Below are positions 31,220 through 40,135 of a stretch of DNA of 64,000 nt, piece after piece. The translations under genes and the position numbers were made by a program. The stretch covers positions 248,001 through 312,000 of the forward strand of contig JAFLBF010000001.1 in the NCBI GenBank assembly GCA_017303895.1, given 5' to 3'. The notes below the pieces were generated by a model, which searched no databases, was not told where the DNA came from, and was given only the letters and a program-made list of their open reading frames with translations. Every line of letters begins with the position of its first letter. Positions within the stretch are counted from its first letter, which is position 1. The DNA is from Bacteroidota bacterium. GTDB lineage: Bacteria; Bacteroidota; Bacteroidia; 2-12-FULL-35-15.

Positions 31220-32425
31220 TTAAATGGCACAAATAAACAGCTTATTATCTCTTTTATTATAGATGTTAAATAAGGAATTAAAGTTCACATTGGCTACAAT
31301 GAAATTGGTGCTGGCCGACTTATACTCTTCCTCTATATTCAATATTTCCAGATCATTCAACTGTGATTTATCCTGAAAGCGAATGTATAACTTGATCGGA
31401 AAATCGAACTCTACTTGTTTGATCCCATCCTCAATATTTGGATTGATCGTTAATGCCTTTTTCAGCTTTTTATAACCGTATTTATAATCATAGGTTAATG
31501 CCGAAATATCAGATAATACTGCACTTCCGGTAGGATGACTGCCGGCACCTTTGCCTACTAATGTTTGTTTACATGAGAAAGCACCTTCTACTTCCACAGC
31601 ATTGTACTCATACAGCACATTGTACAATTCACTTTCTTTCCCTACCAAATGAGGTAAAGCATAAACACGGTATTTATCACCCACTTTTTGTGATACCCCC
31701 AACATTTTTACTCGCAAACCTCTTTGTTTTGCATACAAAATATCATCGTAACTGATATTCTGAATTCCTGTATTGAAAATATCATCGGGGGCCAAGACGA
31801 TGCCAAATGCATGTATCGTCAATAAAGAAGTCTTGAACTTTGTATCAAAACCGGCCACATCCAGCCATGGATCGCTTTCTGCAAAACCATTTAACTGAGC
31901 ATCCTTCAATACATCCGTATAATCTTTGTTTTCCAACTCCATACGAGTAAGAATATAATTACAGGTTCCATTCAGAATTCCTTTCACACTGCTCAACAAT
32001 TCATTATCGTAATATTCTTCCAAATTTCTAATGATCGGAATACTTCCACCTGCCGATCCTTCATAGATCAAAGCCACATTATTCTTTAATTGAAGATCAT
32101 AAAGTTCTTTGAAATTTTCTGCCAACATTTTTTTATTTGCAGACACTACATTTACACCATTGTTCATCGCTTCTCTCACAATATCAAATGCTTCATTCGC
32201 ATTGTCGATCAATTCAACGATCACATTGTGTTTGCCTGTTTTCAAAATATCATTCTTATCGTATGTAAAATACGATGCATCGATCTTACGTTTTTTATTT
32301 TTGTCCTTCACACAAATACGATCAATATTTGCCTTTAATCCTTCTGAATGATTTAACACATCATACAAACCTTGTCCAACACAACCAAAGCCAAACAATC
32401 CAATTGAAATATCTTTATTTCCCAT
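31220..32425 (-). CDS. hom: Homoserine dehydrogenase
   Basis: 401 residues. NAD(P)-binding IGLFGFGCVGQGLYDVL, VVSANKKMLA, IYEGSAGGSIPIIRNL, ILNGTCNYILTRMELE and the catalytic AESDPWLDVAGFDTKFK are diagnostic. The enzyme converts aspartate semialdehyde to homoserine, the precursor of Met and Thr. After residue 320 a beta-rich segment may be a regulatory domain. It lies directly downstream of the sulfur-assimilation genes, linking sulfide supply to Met synthesis. A -7 element of its own is visible. Confidence 0.93.
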   Translation of the reverse strand: MGNKDISIGLFGFGCVGQGLYDVLNHSEGLKANIDRICVKDKNKKRKIDASYFTYDKNDILKTGKHNVIVELIDNANEAFDIVREAMNNGVNVVSANKKMLAENFKELYDLQLKNNVALIYEGSAGGSIPIIRNLEEYYDNELLSSVKGILNGTCNYILTRMELENKDYTDVLKDAQLNGFAESDPWLDVAGFDTKFKTSLLTIHAFGIVLAPDDIFNTGIQNISYDDILYAKQRGLRVKMLGVSQKVGDKYRVYALPHLVGKESELYNVLYEYNAVEVEGAFSCKQTLVGKGAGSHPTGSAVLSDISALTYDYKYGYKKLKKALTINPNIEDGIKQVEFDFPIKLYIRFQDKSQLNDLEILNIEEEYKSASTNFIVANVNFNSLFNIYNKRDNKLFICAI

Positions 32426-32488: not shown

Positions 32489-33136
32489 TTATAAATGCAA
32501 GCCGCATTCTGTCTTCGATTTATTGACCCAACGACCACTTCTACCCTTTCCTGCAACCGTACAATGAAAACAGCCTACTGAGTTAAAACCCGCTTTTAGC
32601 AAAGGATGTTCAGGCAATTGATGTTGTTTGATATAGTCGAATGCATCTTGTTCTTTTAAGTCGACCAAGGGATAAAACTTTAGCATTCCATCTTTTTGGT
32701 CAAATACTTTTAAACTTCCTCTGTACTTGTTTTGGGAAGACATTAAACCGGATACCCAAACTTGAAAATCGGGCTTGATCTTATCCAATGGCTCGACTTT
32801 ATTAATGGAACAACATAGGTCGGGATCCGAATTCCATGTTTTATCCTCTTGCGTAAACTTATTCTTCCACTCTTCGGGTTTAACGTCAATTACATTCAAT
32901 CCCAAGAGGGCTGTTAATTGTTGTTTATAGACCAATGTTTCATTGAAATGATAAGTAGTATCAAGAAAATGAACGGCCTGATCTTTATTAACCTTATGAA
33001 ATAGATGCAATAAAAAAGCAGCAGTCGTTCCAAAAGAAGATGTAAACAACACCCTTTCGAAATCCTTATATAATTCCTTTATCCGTTGTTCCGGACTTAA
33101 AGGAGCATATTTGCTATTTAAAACATCAATATTCAT
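32489..33136 (-). CDS. cysH: APS/PAPS reductase, iron-sulfur type
   Basis: 215 residues. Cys108-Cys109 (DLCCSINKVEPL) and Cys189-x2-Cys192 (GCFHC) form the CC-x79-CxxC motif that binds a 4Fe-4S cluster, which usually marks enzymes reducing adenylyl sulfate (APS) rather than PAPS. The catalytic Cys211 is in KTECGLH near the C-terminus. SSFGTTAAFLLHLF holds the nucleotide-binding loop. The product is sulfite, passed to the reductase in the same operon. Its start overlaps the previous stop by one base. Sulfate-activation genes are not in the window. Confidence 0.92.
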   Translation of the reverse strand: MNIDVLNSKYAPLSPEQRIKELYKDFERVLFTSSFGTTAAFLLHLFHKVNKDQAVHFLDTTYHFNETLVYKQQLTALLGLNVIDVKPEEWKNKFTQEDKTWNSDPDLCCSINKVEPLDKIKPDFQVWVSGLMSSQNKYRGSLKVFDQKDGMLKFYPLVDLKEQDAFDYIKQHQLPEHPLLKAGFNSVGCFHCTVAGKGRSGRWVNKSKTECGLHL

Positions 33137-34665
33137 TAAAATATTCCTGATAAAATATTACGCAAACTTACGATAATTACTACAATTCCAACCGTAATCA
33201 ACCCTGCACGAACGGGGATTTTAGATGTAAAATAAGCTGCAATAGGAGCCGCTATTGTCCCGCCAATAACCAACCCAATAATAATGCTCCAATGCTGTAA
33301 ACCAATAATGGTAAAAAATGTTACTGAACTCGCCAAGGTAATAAAAAACTCTGCGAGGTTCACTGAACCGATCGTATAGCGCACATCTCTGCCTCTGGCA
33401 ATTAATGTTGACGAAACGATGGGCCCCCAGCCTCCGCCTCCAATAGAGTCTAAAAACGCACCAAAGAATGCAAGTATTCCAATCCGTTTGATCTTTTTCT
33501 TTTCATTCAATTTCCTGATCGCTTTAATAATAATCGTGATCCCAAGAATGAGTGTATAAACAGAAACAATAGGCTTGATATATTCACTGTAGCTTTCGGC
33601 AGAAGATAAAATATAAGCACCAATGATCGCACCTATAATTCCCGGAATAAGTAAATTCTTAAATAATTTTGTGTTTACATTTTTAAATTTCAAATGACTT
33701 AAACCCGATGCACCGGTAGTGAATATTTCGGAAGCATGCACACTTGCACTAGCAGCTGCAGGCGTTACGCCAAAGGAAAGCAGAAATGTTGTCGCTGAAA
33801 GACCATAAGCCATACCCAATGATCCATCTACCATTTGGGCTACAAAACCTGCAGCAATAAATATCAAAACTGTTTCATCGATCAATCCCAACAATTCTCC
33901 GGCATATCCTCCAATTGCCGAAAATGGAATATATGTAAATAACAAGTGACCAAGCACCATTAAAGCTATGGAAGCCAGAGAATACAATAGCCAATAGCGA
34001 AGAAGTTCTTTCTTCGTTTTCTTCCTCGTGCTAACCAAATGGGGTTGCAAAGAAGAAATATTCTGACTGCTCGTTAAAATAGCGGTAGCTTCGTTCAACT
34101 TTTTTACCTTTTCAGTAAAATCACCTTTCAATTGATTTCTGAATTTGTTTAAAGAATCTATGGTGATCTGTGTATCATCAGGCAATGCCTCATTAAACAC
34201 TTCTTTCAAGCGCTTCGCCAATGTAGGCGATTTGCCATTGGTAGAAATTGCGATCTTCAGATCTCCTTTTTGTACGATTGAACCCAGATAAAAGTCGCAT
34301 AGATCAGGAGTATCAGCAACATTCACAAATAATTTTCTTTTAGTTGCTTCTGTTCTTATTAATTCACTAAGCGCTCTATCACCAGTGGCAGCAATAACCA
34401 GGTCTTTATTTTCAAGATCAGCAATTTCAAAGGCCCTCTCAATTAGCTTTACATTTGCTGAAGCTTCCACCAAGTCTTTTATCTCATCAGAAATAACCCT
34501 GGCAACCAATGTAATTTGGGTGGCGGGACTATTCTTTATTACCGCTGTAATCTTCTCCAATCCAATAACGCCTCCACCTACGATCAATAGATGTAATTGC
34601 TCCAATTTTAGAAAAACAGGAAACAGATGGTTCTGAGAATCTAATGTATTATTGACTTTTTCCAC
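33136..34665 (-). CDS. Fusion of siroheme synthase N-domain with TauE/SafE transporter
   Basis: 509 residues. Residues 1 to about 205 are a CysG/Met8-like precorrin-2 dehydrogenase/ferrochelatase module: HLLIVGGGVIGLEKITAVIK, NKDLVIAATGDRALSELI, FVNVADTPDLCDFYLGSIVQ and the substrate loop ISTNGKSPTLAKRLKE. From about residue 225, eight hydrophobic helices form a sulfite exporter TauE/SafE domain (FVAQMVDGSLGMAYGLSATT, DSIGGGGWGPIVSSTLIARG). One protein thus joins cofactor synthesis for sulfite reductase with a putative sulfur oxyanion or organosulfur permease. It lies inside the sulfur operon, overlapping both neighbours (17 nt and 1 nt). Confidence 0.9.
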   Translation of the reverse strand: MEKVNNTLDSQNHLFPVFLKLEQLHLLIVGGGVIGLEKITAVIKNSPATQITLVARVISDEIKDLVEASANVKLIERAFEIADLENKDLVIAATGDRALSELIRTEATKRKLFVNVADTPDLCDFYLGSIVQKGDLKIAISTNGKSPTLAKRLKEVFNEALPDDTQITIDSLNKFRNQLKGDFTEKVKKLNEATAILTSSQNISSLQPHLVSTRKKTKKELLRYWLLYSLASIALMVLGHLLFTYIPFSAIGGYAGELLGLIDETVLIFIAAGFVAQMVDGSLGMAYGLSATTFLLSFGVTPAAASASVHASEIFTTGASGLSHLKFKNVNTKLFKNLLIPGIIGAIIGAYILSSAESYSEYIKPIVSVYTLILGITIIIKAIRKLNEKKKIKRIGILAFFGAFLDSIGGGGWGPIVSSTLIARGRDVRYTIGSVNLAEFFITLASSVTFFTIIGLQHWSIIIGLVIGGTIAAPIAAYFTSKIPVRAGLITVGIVVIIVSLRNILSGIF

Positions 34666-35838: not shown

Positions 35839-36615
35839 TTAATTCAACAAATATTTCCAATCTGTTAGGCTTACCGGGAATTGCTCGTGCAGTTTCACCA
35901 CATCACCTATCACAATAATAGCGGGAGCTGCAATTTTTTCCTGTTGAGCAATCTCTGCAATGGTATCAATTGTTCCAAGTACAATTTTTTCATTCGGCAA
36001 TGAACCATTTTGTATGATAGCTATAGCTGTGTCGTGCTTATCATTTTGCTTGAACACATTAACGATCTCCTGCAGTTTATTTAAACCCATCAATATGACA
36101 ACAGTGGCAGTAGACTGAGCGGCTAAACGAACATCCTCTGAAAGTTGTCCGGAGCTGGTTGTGCCTGTTGTTACCCAAAAGCTCTCATTGGTTCCTCTAT
36201 TGGTCAGAGGAATTCCTTGTAACTCAGGTACTGCGATACTGCTGGAGATCCCCGGAATAACTTCTGTGTCAATGTTAAAAAGTTCAGCATATACTTTTTC
36301 CTCATAGCCACGTCCAAAAACGAAAGAGTCTCCTCCTTTCAGCCTCACCACATGACCATAAGTAAAAGCAAAATCAACGATCAAGGAATTGATCTGTTCT
36401 TGTGAATATGCATGATTGGAATTTCGTTTCCCAACATAAATTTTCAATGTTGTATCCGGAGCATAATTCAATAATTCTTTATTCACTAATGCATCATACA
36501 GTATCACATCTGCTTGTGTTAAAGCTTGCACACCTTTAACCGTGATTAGATCTGCATCGCCAGGACCGGCACCAACCAGTGTAAATTTTGGATATATATT
36601 ATTTCTTGTTTTCAT
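35839..36615 (-). CDS. cobA: Uroporphyrinogen-III C-methyltransferase (SUMT)
   Basis: 258 residues. The SAM-binding VGAGPGDADLITVKGVQALT with VILYDALVN, VVRLKGGDSFVFGRGYEE, VIPGISSSIAVPELQGIPLT and TVVILMGLNKL are the family blocks. It makes precorrin-2 from uroporphyrinogen III, feeding siroheme for the sulfite reductase upstream. The N-domain of the fusion protein downstream would finish siroheme. Its start overlaps the end of a 45-codon ORF by 17 nt. Confidence 0.94.
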   Translation of the reverse strand: MKTRNNIYPKFTLVGAGPGDADLITVKGVQALTQADVILYDALVNKELLNYAPDTTLKIYVGKRNSNHAYSQEQINSLIVDFAFTYGHVVRLKGGDSFVFGRGYEEKVYAELFNIDTEVIPGISSSIAVPELQGIPLTNRGTNESFWVTTGTTSSGQLSEDVRLAAQSTATVVILMGLNKLQEIVNVFKQNDKHDTAIAIIQNGSLPNEKIVLGTIDTIAEIAQQEKIAAPAIIVIGDVVKLHEQFPVSLTDWKYLLN

Positions 36616-36737: not shown

Positions 36738-38837
36738 TTAGCTTGTCTGTTTACTCCGAATTGTTTTTGCTTGCTCTATAAAACCTATCGCTTCTGTCAA
36801 ATAATTTTCTGCAAATTCTTTTGATGGTTCATTCTGATTTATCTGCAACACAAATTCTTTAAATGTTGTTTTTAGTTTTATTTCATTTGTCTCCACATAC
36901 TGTTTATCAAAGTCATTGATAATTCCATGATGTGTATTGGTTGGTACACTCTTATCTAACAACAAGGCTTTGGCACTACTGATGATAGCAGCATAGCTAT
37001 GATAGATGCTGTCAGCATATAAACCATCGGCTAAACTATTTTTTGCCCAATCCAATTTTTCTTCTGCTTCGAAAATTAAAGTAGCTACCAGATCGATCAA
37101 TACTCCGGCACATTCACCCACTCCAATTTCGGTTTTAAATTGTTCCGTATGCCCCCAATCGATATAATCATCTGCAACTAAGGTTGAATTATCAGCATGT
37201 GGTTTTAACAACTGATAGAAATAGTCTTTGCCTTTTTTATCATAATAATTATTAAAATATTCTCCTTCCACTGCATTCTTTTCAAAATCATCCAACAATG
37301 TTCTTAATACTGCCGGTCCTCTTTTACTTGGAACCTTAATGATCTTATCTGCTATTCGCCCTTCCCCATTTCCTAAAACACCACCTCCTAAAACCAGTTG
37401 TAAAGCAGGAACTACATTATTCCCATTTTTAAAAGAACTACCATGGAACCCGATCTGAGCCAATGCATGTTGTCCACAAGAGTTCATACAGCCACTGATC
37501 TTAATTTTAATATCATTGTTAAATTGCAATTCGGGATATTCTTCTGTGATCACTCGTTCCAATTCTTTTGATATTCCTGTACTACTCGATATTCCCAAAT
37601 TACAGGTGTCTGTTCCCGGGCAAGCTGTTATATCTGCAACCGAATCGAAACCAATTTGGGCTAGGCCTAGTTTGGACAACGCTTTGAACAAAGCAGGCAA
37701 GGCTCCCTTTGGAACAAATTTCAATAACAGACCTTGATTCACAGTGATGCGTATATCATCTGTGGCATAGGTATCTACTACTTCTGCTAATTTGCGGGCA
37801 GTAGTTGTATTGATATTCCCTAAACTAATTTTTATGAAAACACCATAATAGCCTTGCTGCTTTTGTTCAAACACATTTGTCACTAACCAATCTTTATACA
37901 CCGGATCATCGCTTACTTTAAAAGTGGTAAAGGATGAATTAATATATTTTTCTTTTGATGGAACAGCTTCTCTGTCGATCTTATACGATTTAACATTTAA
38001 AGCCAAACGCTCTTCTTCAGTTAATTTTAAAAATTCTTCTATCCCAATTTTATTGATCAAATACTTGATACGAGCCTTGTGGCGACTCAATCGTTCTCCA
38101 TGTCTGTCAAAAACACGCACTACAGCTTCTGTAAATGGGATCAGTTGATCTTCTTCCAAGAATTCAAATGCCGTTTTTGCTAAAAATGGTTGAGCACCTA
38201 ACCCCCCACCGATCAACACTTTGAAACCTCTCACGATCTGTCCGTCAACGATCTTTACTTTCGGGATAAAACCCAAGTCATGCATAAATGTGTATGCAGT
38301 ATCTTCATCATTAGAAGAAAATGCAAATTTTAATTTGCGCCCCAATTCCTGACCAAAAGGTTTTCTCAGGAAGTAACGGAACATAGCATCGGCATAAGGC
38401 GAAACATCAAATGGTTCCTTTGGATCTATCCCGGTAACTGCAGAAGCAGTAATGTTACGAACGGTATTGCCACAAGCTTCGCGCAAAGTAATATCGTCTT
38501 GCTCTAATTTTGCCCACAACTCAGGAGTGCTATCCAAACTCACGTGATGAATTTGAATATCCTGACGTGTTGTTAAATGCAAATTCCCATTTGAATACTC
38601 ATCGCTGATATCAGCTATTCTCAACAATTGTTTTGTTGTTAACCTTCCAAATGGAAGTTTGATGCGAACCATCTGAACACCTTGCTGACGCTGACCATAA
38701 ACTCCTCGAGCTAAACGTAAGGAACGGAATTTGTCTTCATGCAATGTTCCATTTCTGAATGCACGTATCTTTTCTTCCAATTCGATAATATCTTTTTCCA
38801 CTAGTGGATTTTCAAGTTCTGTTCTAAAGCTTTGCAT
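36738..38837 (-). CDS. Assimilatory sulfite (nitrite/sulfite) reductase with C-terminal HEPN-like domain
   Basis: 699 residues. Two ferredoxin-like/siroheme half repeats are seen: NLHLTTRQDIQIHHV and ITVNQGLLLKFVPKG. The 4Fe-4S/siroheme cysteines are in CPGTDTCNLG and SGCMNSCGQH. These enzymes reduce sulfite to sulfide with six electrons. Beyond the usual end (about residue 570) lies an extra helical domain, FEAEEKLDWAKNSL and SIYHSYAAIISSAKALLL, typical of HEPN proteins but lacking the RxxxxH nuclease motif. It is the main catalytic gene of the operon; partners supply siroheme and sulfite. Confidence 0.92.
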   Translation of the reverse strand: MQSFRTELENPLVEKDIIELEEKIRAFRNGTLHEDKFRSLRLARGVYGQRQQGVQMVRIKLPFGRLTTKQLLRIADISDEYSNGNLHLTTRQDIQIHHVSLDSTPELWAKLEQDDITLREACGNTVRNITASAVTGIDPKEPFDVSPYADAMFRYFLRKPFGQELGRKLKFAFSSNDEDTAYTFMHDLGFIPKVKIVDGQIVRGFKVLIGGGLGAQPFLAKTAFEFLEEDQLIPFTEAVVRVFDRHGERLSRHKARIKYLINKIGIEEFLKLTEEERLALNVKSYKIDREAVPSKEKYINSSFTTFKVSDDPVYKDWLVTNVFEQKQQGYYGVFIKISLGNINTTTARKLAEVVDTYATDDIRITVNQGLLLKFVPKGALPALFKALSKLGLAQIGFDSVADITACPGTDTCNLGISSSTGISKELERVITEEYPELQFNNDIKIKISGCMNSCGQHALAQIGFHGSSFKNGNNVVPALQLVLGGGVLGNGEGRIADKIIKVPSKRGPAVLRTLLDDFEKNAVEGEYFNNYYDKKGKDYFYQLLKPHADNSTLVADDYIDWGHTEQFKTEIGVGECAGVLIDLVATLIFEAEEKLDWAKNSLADGLYADSIYHSYAAIISSAKALLLDKSVPTNTHHGIINDFDKQYVETNEIKLKTTFKEFVLQINQNEPSKEFAENYLTEAIGFIEQAKTIRSKQTS

Positions 38838-38841
38838 ATAA

Positions 38842-39714
38842 TTAAAGTGTTGCGTTATACAATTGATACCATTCTTCCCGGCTTAATTCTAAAGAATAGG
38901 CGCTAGCCGCGTTTTTTATTCTTTTTTTATCCGGACTACCGATGATCGGCAAAGCGCCTAATTTGTAGAGCCATGCCACGGCTATCTGTTCTACATTTGC
39001 TTGATGTTTTTTACCAATCGATTCTAATACTTTACGGATCTTGATCGCTTTTTTATCTTTTCCGGTCAAAATACGACCATCAGCTAATGGCGAAAAAGCT
39101 AGTGGTTTACTGTATTGCTCTTTGATAAAATCCAGACGACCGTCATTCAATGCATTTGTTTGCAGTAGATTCAATTCGATGTGATTCGTAATGATAGGTT
39201 GTGACAAATGTGCTGCCAACAAACGGTGTTGGGATGCATTAAAATTAGATACGCCAATGTATTTGATCTTTCCACTCAATACTAGTTCCGAAAGAACAGA
39301 TGCGGTTTCTTCCACATCAAATAAAAAATCAGGGTGTTCTAGCAAGAAAATATCAATATAATCGGTTTTCAATTTTTTCAAGGAACTATTTACAGATTCC
39401 TTGATGTGTTTTGCACTTAGATCATAATAAATATTCTTCCCTTTTATATCTTTTACTATCCCGGATTTAGTTGACAATACAATGTCTGCACGGTTAAAGG
39501 ATTTAGACTGGATGGCTTTCCCAAACAATTCCTCGATCTTTCCTGCTCCATATTGATCGCTATGATCGAATGTATTGACTCCTAACTCTAAATTGTAATT
39601 AATGATCTCTTCAACCTTTTTTTGGTTAACTAAACTTGGAGTATTCCATCTCCAAAAACTATAGATTGCTGCTGATACTTCAGGTCCTGAATCACTTATA
39701 TATATTTTTTCCAT
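38842..39714 (-). CDS. Aldo/keto reductase (YdhF-like)
   Basis: 290 residues. The catalytic tetrad is visible: Asp and Tyr in FDHSDQYGAGKIEELFG, Lys in VLSTKSGIV, His in LLEHPDFL. The NADPH site shows in IGVSNFNASQHRLL and LPIIGSPDKKRIKNA. It resembles the YdhF subgroup. It is the first structural gene after two attenuator-like leaders and 4 nt ahead of the sulfite reductase gene, so it is regulated with sulfur assimilation; its substrate there is not known. Confidence 0.88.
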   Translation of the reverse strand: MEKIYISDSGPEVSAAIYSFWRWNTPSLVNQKKVEEIINYNLELGVNTFDHSDQYGAGKIEELFGKAIQSKSFNRADIVLSTKSGIVKDIKGKNIYYDLSAKHIKESVNSSLKKLKTDYIDIFLLEHPDFLFDVEETASVLSELVLSGKIKYIGVSNFNASQHRLLAAHLSQPIITNHIELNLLQTNALNDGRLDFIKEQYSKPLAFSPLADGRILTGKDKKAIKIRKVLESIGKKHQANVEQIAVAWLYKLGALPIIGSPDKKRIKNAASAYSLELSREEWYQLYNATL

Positions 39715-39740: not shown

Positions 39741-39778
39741 AATAAAAAAGCCCCTCGGCTATTCGCGGAAGGGCTTTT
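39741..39778 (-). terminator. Attenuator terminator 2 upstream of the sulfur operon
   Basis: On the minus strand GAAGGGCTTTT (plus 39768-39778) pairs with AAAAGCCCCTC (39746-39756), an 11-bp stem with one G-U, followed by CTTTTTTATTT. It lies 20 nt after the stop of leader ORF 2 and 27 nt before the aldo/keto reductase ATG, so it would stop transcription before the operon unless prevented. Confidence 0.75.
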
Positions 39779-39797
39779 GATCTTGCTTTATGTTGTT

Positions 39798-39908
39798 TTA
39801 ACTTTTACAACATTGCATAGTAGTAGCGCTCCGCATTCGCAGGTACATCATACAACACATACACATTAGTAAGTTGAAAGTTAAAAGTTGAAAGTTAAAA
39901 GTTGTCAT
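39798..39908 (-). CDS. Met/Cys-rich leader peptide 2
   Basis: 36-codon ORF from ATG at 39908. After a bland start, codons 15-21 read MCMCCMM, with more Met and Cys codons later (MQCCKS before the stop). Seven of seven residues in the core are sulfur amino acids, far above chance. It is followed after 20 nt by terminator 2. A weak competing pairing is TGCGGAG (39829-39835) with TTCCGCG (39764-39770). The ORF begins about 23 nt after the terminator of leader 1. Its first codons consist of AACTTTCAACTTTTAACTTT-like tandem repeats. Confidence 0.65.
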   Translation of the reverse strand: MTTFNFQLLTFNLLMCMCCMMYLRMRSATTMQCCKS

Positions 39909-39938
39909 TTATAATAGTATTACTGTATTAAAAATCAA

Positions 39939-39967
39939 AAAAGGCTTCCCGTTTTGGAAAGCCTTTT
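39939..39967 (-). terminator. Attenuator terminator 1
   Basis: On the minus strand AAAAGGCTTTCC and GGGAAGCCTTTT form the hairpin (9 bp plus two G-C pairs beyond a bulge), followed by TTTTGATTTTT. The 5' arm AGGCTTTCCA is also perfectly complementary to the upstream segment at 40000-40009, so terminator and antiterminator exclude each other. Confidence 0.8.
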
Positions 39968-39999
39968 AAAAAATGTATTTAAAAATATGTTATTACAAC

Positions 40000-40009
40000 A
40001 GGCTTTCCA
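40000..40009 (-). promoter_or_regulatory. Antiterminator 5' arm following leader 1
   Basis: TGGAAAGCCT on the minus strand, starting 4 nt after the leader 1 stop codon, can form 10 perfect base pairs with AGGCTTTCCA in the terminator 5' arm (39955-39964). A ribosome at the stop codon would cover it; one stalled at the Met/Cys codons would leave it free. Confidence 0.7.
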
Positions 40010-40012
40010 TAA

Positions 40013-40084
40013 TTAAATACACATCATACAGCACATCATTGGTCTGTTGATTGTAGATAATGTATATGTAAAGTTGTTGTTCAT
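40013..40084 (-). CDS. Met/Cys-rich leader peptide 1
   Basis: 23-codon ORF MNNNFTYTLSTINRP followed by MMCCMMCI and stop. The last Cys codon lies 10 nt before the antiterminator arm and the stop codon 4 nt before it. A consensus promoter lies directly upstream with a predicted leader of about 10 nt. The arrangement equals classical trp/his-type leader peptides, with Met and Cys as the sensed residues. Confidence 0.75.
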   Translation of the reverse strand: MNNNFTYTLSTINRPMMCCMMCI

Positions 40085-40102
40085 TTTTTTCTTATTGCGA
40101 TG

Positions 40103-40135
40103 CAAATATATGAATGTAAAATTCAATTTTGCAAA
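40103..40135 (-). promoter_or_regulatory. Consensus promoter of the sulfur operon
   Basis: On the minus strand TTTG (40132-40135), a 21-bp spacer, and TATATTTG (40103-40110). Both boxes match the Bacteroidota consensus. Transcription would start near 40096, about 12 nt ahead of leader ORF 1. Confidence 0.7.

Follow-up and report, generated by a model that had tools for sequence, protein, structure and literature searches.

The sulfur operon and its leader region

The 64-kb window (the whole stretch of 64,000 nucleotides that was analyzed) contains an operon for a nitrite/sulfite reductase, a PAPS reductase family protein, a homoserine dehydrogenase, and further enzymes (Table 1), which also encodes DUF4395 and DUF2490 proteins. 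Because of this gene content, the operon is expected to serve both Cys and Met. The HEPN domain at the C-terminus of the sulfite reductase (Pfam, E=2e-9) is an unusual fusion partner for an enzyme of assimilation. Another gene encodes a single polypeptide in which the NAD-binding and central domains of sirohaem synthase are joined to a TauE/SafE permease.

Table 1. Features of the operon and of the region upstream of it (positions in the window)
Feature	Position	Strand	Remarks
Homoserine dehydrogenase	31220..32425	(-)	
PAPS reductase family protein (CysH)	32489..33136	(-)	
Sirohaem synthase domains + TauE/SafE permease fusion	33136..34665	(-)	
Tetrapyrrole methylase, probably uroporphyrinogen-III methyltransferase (SUMT)	35839..36615	(-)	
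Nitrite/sulfite reductase + C-terminal HEPN domain	36738..38837	(-)	
Aldo/keto reductase	38842..39714	(-)	First operon gene in the genome studied here
Intrinsic terminator 2	39744..39778	(-)	Hairpin 39778-39746 + T-run
Arm 3 of attenuator 2 (CTTCCGC)	39765..39771	(-)	
Small stem ATGTTGT/ACAACAT	39790..39813	(-)	Extends across the leader 2 stop codon
Leader 2 ORF MTTFNFQLLTFNLLMCMCCMMYLRMRSATTMQCCKS, then stop (core MCMCCMMYLRMR)	39798..39908	(-)	MCMC[CF]M..LRMR and, at the C-terminus, ..YCK mostly conserved in 11 genomes
Antiterminator arm 2 of attenuator 2 (core GCGGAG)	39829..39834	(-)	Inside ORF 2
Intrinsic terminator 1	39937..39967	(-)	Hairpin 39967-39939 + T-run
Arm 3 of attenuator 1 (AGGCTTTCCA)	39955..39964	(-)	Common to antiterminator and terminator
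Antiterminator arm 2 of attenuator 1 (TGGAAAGCCT)	40000..40009	(-)	Past the stop codon of leader 1
Leader 1 ORF MNNNFTYTLSTINRPMMCCMMCI, then stop (ends MMCCMMCI)	40013..40084	(-)	Run kept in relatives; N-terminus and TGT/TGC Cys codons vary
Promoter-like boxes TTTG-21 nt-TATATTTG (Bacteroidota type)	40103..40135	(-)	TTTG at 40135-40132, TATATTTG at 40110-40103; putative function

On the minus strand, the upstream region consists, in this order, of one promoter-like box, leader 1, terminator 1, leader 2, terminator 2, and the operon. All elements listed in the original prediction (the promoter box, two ORFs, an antiterminator arm, and two hairpins) were found at their predicted places on this strand, and only the spacings had to be corrected: the arm follows the stop codon of leader 1 after 3 nt (not 4) and its last Cys codon after 9 nt (not 10), and 26 nt (not 27) separate position 39741 from the next ATG on the operon side. 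Two elements of leader 2 had been overlooked, namely the antiterminator arm inside its ORF and the stem over its stop codon.

The Met/Cys content of the two leaders is unique in the window. All small ORFs (sORFs) of 7-60 amino acids on both strands were scored for the number of Met plus Cys in 8 codons, with at least 2 Cys. Both leaders reached a score of 7, and no other sORF scored above 4. In addition, the 64-kb window was searched with the Rfam covariance models; a distant tRNA was the single match, and the leader region was free of matches. A SAM riboswitch (S-box) in the window was thereby also considered and rejected.

In attenuator 1, arms 2 and 3 are perfectly complementary over 10 nt, and a free energy of -15.9 kcal/mol was calculated for the terminator hairpin. 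The hairpin of terminator 2 was calculated at -18.9 kcal/mol. For leader 1, one folding of the region did not reveal any strong pairing of arm 2 with the upstream sequence, i.e. no arm-1 "protector" hairpin, and for leader 2 one folding yielded a hairpin of only 4 bp.

Conservation within the genus

When 36 genomes of the genus were searched with the codon pattern ATGTGYTGYATGATG, 26 sites were found, compared with one site for the reversed pattern. With one exception, all of these sites (25 of 26) were Met/Cys leaders located before sulfur genes, and they fell into three classes. Class A (14 sites) contains leaders that end with MMCCMMC and one further residue before the stop, or closely similar sequences, followed by TGGAAAGCC and its terminator; they precede operons for sulfite reductase, TauE-cysH, or homoserine dehydrogenase. 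Class B (6 sites, with MCMCCMMYLRMR) was always located behind class A, and class C (5 sites, MMCCMMCC and one residue before the stop) was found before cysC-cysD. All combinations of TGT and TGC occurred among the Cys codons of the leaders. In the genome studied here, the MMCC pattern was found in leader 1, in a class C leader, and at one site opposite a coding sequence, and nowhere else.

A sulfite reductase is present in 14 genomes of the genus, and in 11 of the 14 its operon is preceded by a tandem of class A and class B leaders with variable N-termini and spacers; this number includes variants such as MCMCFMCLRMR and one genome with a pair split by a contig break. The pair was absent in the other three (G008, G031, and G013, the last with a doubtful candidate). 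Loss of the Met/Cys runs and of the antiterminator pairing in close relatives, which the original prediction had named as the outcome that would speak against it, did not occur in these 11 operons.

The genus was also searched with the core of terminator 1, which resulted in 16 sites. Thirteen of these were class A sites already known, one was a chance match in a coding region, and two were new leaders; all 15 non-coding sites thus lie behind Met/Cys leaders. The new leaders, which end with MMCGMMCF and AMYCMMMRF before the stop, precede homoserine dehydrogenase in genomes that lack a sulfite reductase. A Met-rich leader like AMYCMMMRF at this gene is as expected if Met codons sense Met. The two new leaders belong to the class A attenuators of G029 (L267) and G009 (L272), with two Cys in one run, and one Cys and four Met in the other.

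Genome G021 has a class A leader on an aldo/keto reductase-homoserine dehydrogenase unit and the tandem on a separate sulfite reductase unit (L042, L087). The attenuator thus seems to travel with the parts of the split operon.

Pairing of arm 2 with the 5'-arm of the terminator (arm 3) was observed for 31 of 31 genus leaders examined. In classes A and C, the start of arm 2 lies 0-5 nt past the stop codon, so a terminating ribosome would cover it, and in most genomes a small hairpin directly follows arm 2 in the class A antiterminator. For leader 2, arm 2 starts at -39/-38 relative to the stop codon in 11 of 11 genus loci and the T-run lies at +46 to +50, while the ORF varies in frame between 29 and 51 amino acids. 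Its N-terminal part (39866-39905) is composed of repeats (TTTTAACTTTCAAC twice), and similar repeats with in-frame length variation are present in the relatives. The stem spanning the stop codon was misplaced by one column in the MAFFT alignment, and the sequences were folded individually instead; it was kept in 10 of 11 genomes (weak in one), with one A-T to G-C change and two G-U changes. Covariation within the genus was weak because the arms are too conserved. Therefore, the argument from pairing relies on complementarity across families, at loci that are not all independent of each other.

The arrangement of the promoter-like sequences is in agreement with a serial design. The ATG of leader 1 lies 26 nt past the start of the TATATTTG box, and in class A loci TATATTTG was found 25-27 nt upstream of the leader ATG in nearly all relatives; the exception is G033, for which an upstream ATG served as the anchor of the scan and no spacing was obtained. 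Most class C leaders are preceded by TACATTTG at a distance of 16-17 nt. The 110 nt ahead of leader 2 contained no TAnnTTTG in 10 of the 11 class B loci. Therefore, one promoter followed by two serial attenuators is the likely arrangement.

Proposed mechanism of the two attenuators

The leader region contains several of the elements that characterize trp and his attenuators: leader ORFs that look translated and carry Met and Cys codons in a run, an intrinsic terminator before the first structural gene, and an antiterminator of arms 2 and 3 whose formation excludes the terminator. Together with the conservation of runs, hairpins, and complementarity in 11 of 14 operons and the presence of the pair in other families (see below), these sequence features support the original proposal of two attenuators in series that sense Cys and Met. 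We estimate a probability of roughly 85% that two serial ribosome-mediated attenuators gate the sulfur-assimilation operon in response to how far tRNA-Cys and tRNA-Met are charged.

The accessibility of arm 2 was analyzed with a footprint model in which the ribosome covers the RNA from position -18 to position +12 relative to the A site. In leader 1, arm 2 is free of the ribosome up to Met21, and it is covered from the codons just past MMCCMM. A ribosome that has finished leader 1 would rest on the stop codon and cover arm 2, and arm 3 would then fold into terminator 1. A ribosome stalled within MMCCMM would leave arm 2 free, arms 2 and 3 could pair, and RNA polymerase would read on. In the model, a ribosome on the stop codon indeed covers arm 2 and a ribosome stalled upstream leaves it free, as in the trp and his leaders. 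The classical geometry that had been claimed for leader 1 is thus retained, with the amendment that, by this simple footprint, its last Cys codon would be a poor sensor because a ribosome stalled there already covers part of arm 2.

The layout of attenuator 2 is not that of the textbook, because arm 2 lies within the ORF, right behind the MCMCCMM run with the same codons. In the footprint model, it is free of the ribosome up to Met21, with which MCMCCMM ends, and covered from the codons just past that run. Stalling upstream of arm 2 would thus allow the 2:3 pairing to form. A running ribosome would cover arm 2 first and, once on the stop codon, would keep arms 2 and 3 apart, leading to terminator 2. 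In contrast to the trp/his geometry, arm 2 lies behind the terminating ribosome and is not covered by it. The ribosome on stop 2 would span about -21 to +10, with the end of arm 2 at about -26 and the start of the terminator at about +15. The ribosome therefore fits between arm 2 and the terminator, and it may act as a wedge. The stem at the stop codon would tighten the antiterminator and would have to melt when the ribosome arrives. Early release of the ribosome at the stop codon would be the weak point of leader 2, because it would let the 2:3 pairing form.

Calculation of the folding equilibrium favored the terminator in both leaders at every ribosome position. Therefore, the switch would have to be kinetic, and known attenuators likewise switch kinetically. 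A 1:2 protector hairpin is typical of trp, but stalling-dependent antitermination does not require one.

With plentiful Cys and Met, leakage through the two terminators would be low, and full read-through would be reached only with stalling in both leaders. As the two leaders would respond to identical amino acids, their effects are expected to multiply in series. Of the suggestion that the serial arrangement sharpens or widens the response, the first half fits better, as the codon mixture is the same in both leaders; widening fits less well.

Met/Cys leaders beyond the genus

Outside of the genus, matches to MCCMM were mostly chance occurrences in coding regions, and three real leaders were identified among those examined (G098, G221, and G274). 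Therefore, the survey was performed by target gene instead. Throughout the taxonomic class, sORFs were counted when 5 or more of 8 codons were for Met or Cys. Such sORFs were found upstream of sulfite reductase in 24 of 79 loci, compared with 0 of 1975 shuffled sequences and 0 of 79 antisense sequences; the loci were from named organisms or MAGs and included Pedobacter, Mucilaginibacter, Chitinophaga, Pontibacter, and Botryobacter. Upstream of MetY, 18 of 30 loci contained a Met/Cys sORF (0.11% of 1800 shuffles; 1 of 30 antisense). Control flanks were devoid of them (0 of 25 and 0 of 77). For CysD, leaders were found at only 5 of 30 loci, and these upstream regions lie mostly within operons. 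In G274, cysE-cysM is also preceded by a Met/Cys leader.

For 47 leaders with a terminator below -10 kcal/mol, the pairing of arm 2 and arm 3 was compared with dinucleotide shuffles. It was better at p<0.05 in 30 of 47 cases (about 2 were expected) and at p<=0.005 in 14 of 47, numbers that are somewhat inflated by related loci and include a few relatives from the genus itself. Some of the MetY leaders were without a detectable intrinsic terminator. From these comparisons, the leaders appear to belong to a class-wide sulfur regulon and not to one operon.

The leaders were assigned to two types: in type 1, arm 2 is located at or after the stop codon, and in type 2, it is located inside the ORF, with the T-run at +49 to +56. 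The ordered pair of type 1 followed by type 2 recurs in at least four other families (f16, f19, f37, and f44), with the hairpins of the two type 1 leaders of f37 identified by eye only. Tandem leaders were also found upstream of MetY in several families.

Apparent alternation with SAM-I riboswitches

A SAM-I riboswitch is present upstream of MetY in 17 of 30 loci, and 13 of these 17 also contain a scored, mostly Cys-dominated leader. At four sulfite reductase loci of Pontibacter/Botryobacter, SAM-I directly precedes poly-Cys leaders. No SAM-I was found at the tandem-leader loci scanned. Quantification of the Met share of the runs gave 0.16 for 17 loci with SAM-I and 0.41 for 38 loci without it (p=1.2e-5, relatedness ignored), and tandems before MetY occurred in 0 of 17 loci with and 6 of 13 loci without SAM-I (p=0.003, relatedness ignored). 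Thus, leaders without SAM-I have mixed Met/Cys runs and may be tandem, and those behind SAM-I are Cys-dominated. The lower Met share and the lack of MetY tandems in the presence of SAM-I suggest that the riboswitch is replaced by Met codons as the Met sensor where it is missing.

SAM-I closely followed by a Cys-dominated leader was observed at many of the loci L197, L199, L204, and L215 (about 2370-2630) and the 17 MetY loci (among L095-L123). The leader ORF could be translated under control of the riboswitch; a description of such a riboswitch and leader-peptide composite was not found in the literature searched. On balance, we favor the view that sulfur assimilation in the Bacteroidota is controlled by class-wide Cys/Met attenuators in two two-signal designs, either type 1 and type 2 in series, or SAM-I for Met followed by a Cys leader.

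Leader peptides with MMCCMM or MCMCCMMYLRMR might be arrest peptides that are sensed in the exit tunnel together with, e.g., cysteine, SAM, or a metal ligand and stall the ribosome, and codon supply would then be irrelevant. Within the genus, the order of the residues is well kept, including the LRMR..YCK end of leader 2, but this conserved end is also where arm 2 and the stop-codon stem are located. Across the families, order and length change freely (CCCCCC, ATCCTMCCTCCAL, MCYMCCCCM, MMCCKM) and the Met/Cys content stays, and the runs turn Cys-dominated where SAM-I is present. Arrest is thus an improbable explanation of the leaders.

The recurrence of the ordered pair in four further families is difficult to reconcile with the notion that attenuator 1 works alone and leader 2 is a decaying copy of it. 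It is true that only attenuator 1 has the textbook layout and that some operons (homoserine dehydrogenase only, TauE-cysH, CysC-CysD) have a single leader. However, the codons, arm 2, the terminator, and the spacing of leader 2 have been kept in 11 genomes despite a variable N-terminus and preceding spacer, and decay is as improbable as arrest. Even less credible is a function of the sORFs as Met/Cys-rich miniproteins for metal or thiol binding that are co-expressed with the sulfur genes: the ORFs are conserved and probably translated, but mainly the run is kept, three searched sORFs had no Pfam or NCBIfam match, and each genus leader has a complementary arm and is followed, at an almost constant distance, by a terminator. 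Codon-dependent attenuation by two serial leaders remains the preferred explanation.

Relation to known systems

Attenuator 1 has the layout of the E. coli trp, his, and leu attenuators, i.e. a leader ORF with codons for the end product, mutually exclusive antiterminator and terminator structures, and a decision by ribosome position. In contrast to these, the leaders described here would respond to Cys and Met, two attenuators are arranged in series, the arm of attenuator 2 lies in the ORF, and leader 1 has no evident arm-1 hairpin.

Cys leaders of mycobacteria are reportedly leaderless and are said to act on translation (Canestrari 2020, doi 10.1111/mmi.14498, as cited in other papers). Actinobacterial poly-Cys leader ORFs resemble the present ones in that they are short, contain consecutive Cys codons, and lie ahead of genes for Cys biosynthesis (PMC1262725); in the accessible part of that report, they are without obvious terminators (Seliverstov 2005, PMC1262725) and neither Met codons nor tandem leaders are mentioned. 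Assignment of the present leaders to this attenuator class was ruled out in view of the mixed Met/Cys run, the intrinsic terminators, and an ATG 26 nt from the start of TATATTTG.

The Salmonella mgtCBR leader RNA also contains two leader ORFs, one of which senses an amino acid by codons (PMC3641672). However, its ORFs sense different signals, ATP and proline, and its stem-loops are unlike intrinsic terminators (Lee and Groisman 2012, PMC3641672), whereas here the two leaders share their amino acid specificity at the codon level and an intrinsic terminator follows each of them. Premature termination at Met/Cys genes is also known for S-box/SAM-I riboswitches (RF00162), and serial elements are known for the tandem SAM/B12 riboswitches of B. 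clausii metE (as cited in PMC3641672). Unlike the ribosome stalling proposed here, riboswitches depend on metabolite binding by RNA.

A survey from 2010 stated that no leader peptides had been known outside the Proteobacteria and Actinobacteria before its own case from the Firmicutes (PMC2965389). In the same phylum as the present genome, leader-peptide control of amino-acid operons has been suggested for Flavobacterium psychrophilum (PMC9723704); the main text of that study, as far as it is accessible, names neither a Cys/Met operon nor a tandem design. Our literature search found no Cys/Met leaders in Bacteroidota (Lopatovskaya 2010 and the supplement of PMC9723704 may mention related leaders), no serial attenuators of the same specificity, and no description of an in-ORF arm. 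Attenuation is of a known kind, but three features seem to be new: a Cys/Met specificity within the Bacteroidota, the pairing of two attenuators in series, and an arm inside the ORF. The serial Met/Cys decoy leaders look like an undescribed, widespread switch of sulfur genes for Cys/Met shortage.

The sensing of sulfur amino acids in Bacteroidota is largely undescribed in the searchable literature. A conserved serial pair that reads the same amino acids poses a question of regulatory logic, i.e. of leak and gain, and the type 2 layout raises the question of whether RNA structure can be switched by a ribosome that is placed between two arms rather than on top of one. Relatives are found in cultivable named genera (Pedobacter, Mucilaginibacter, Chitinophaga, and Pontibacter). 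The Met/Cys sORFs fall below the usual limits of annotation. Further small ORFs, of about 55-75 codons, were noticed in the gap between leader 2 and metY (L095, L096) and in that between the Cys leader and metY (L108, L115), and those of L108 and L115 are apparently alike.
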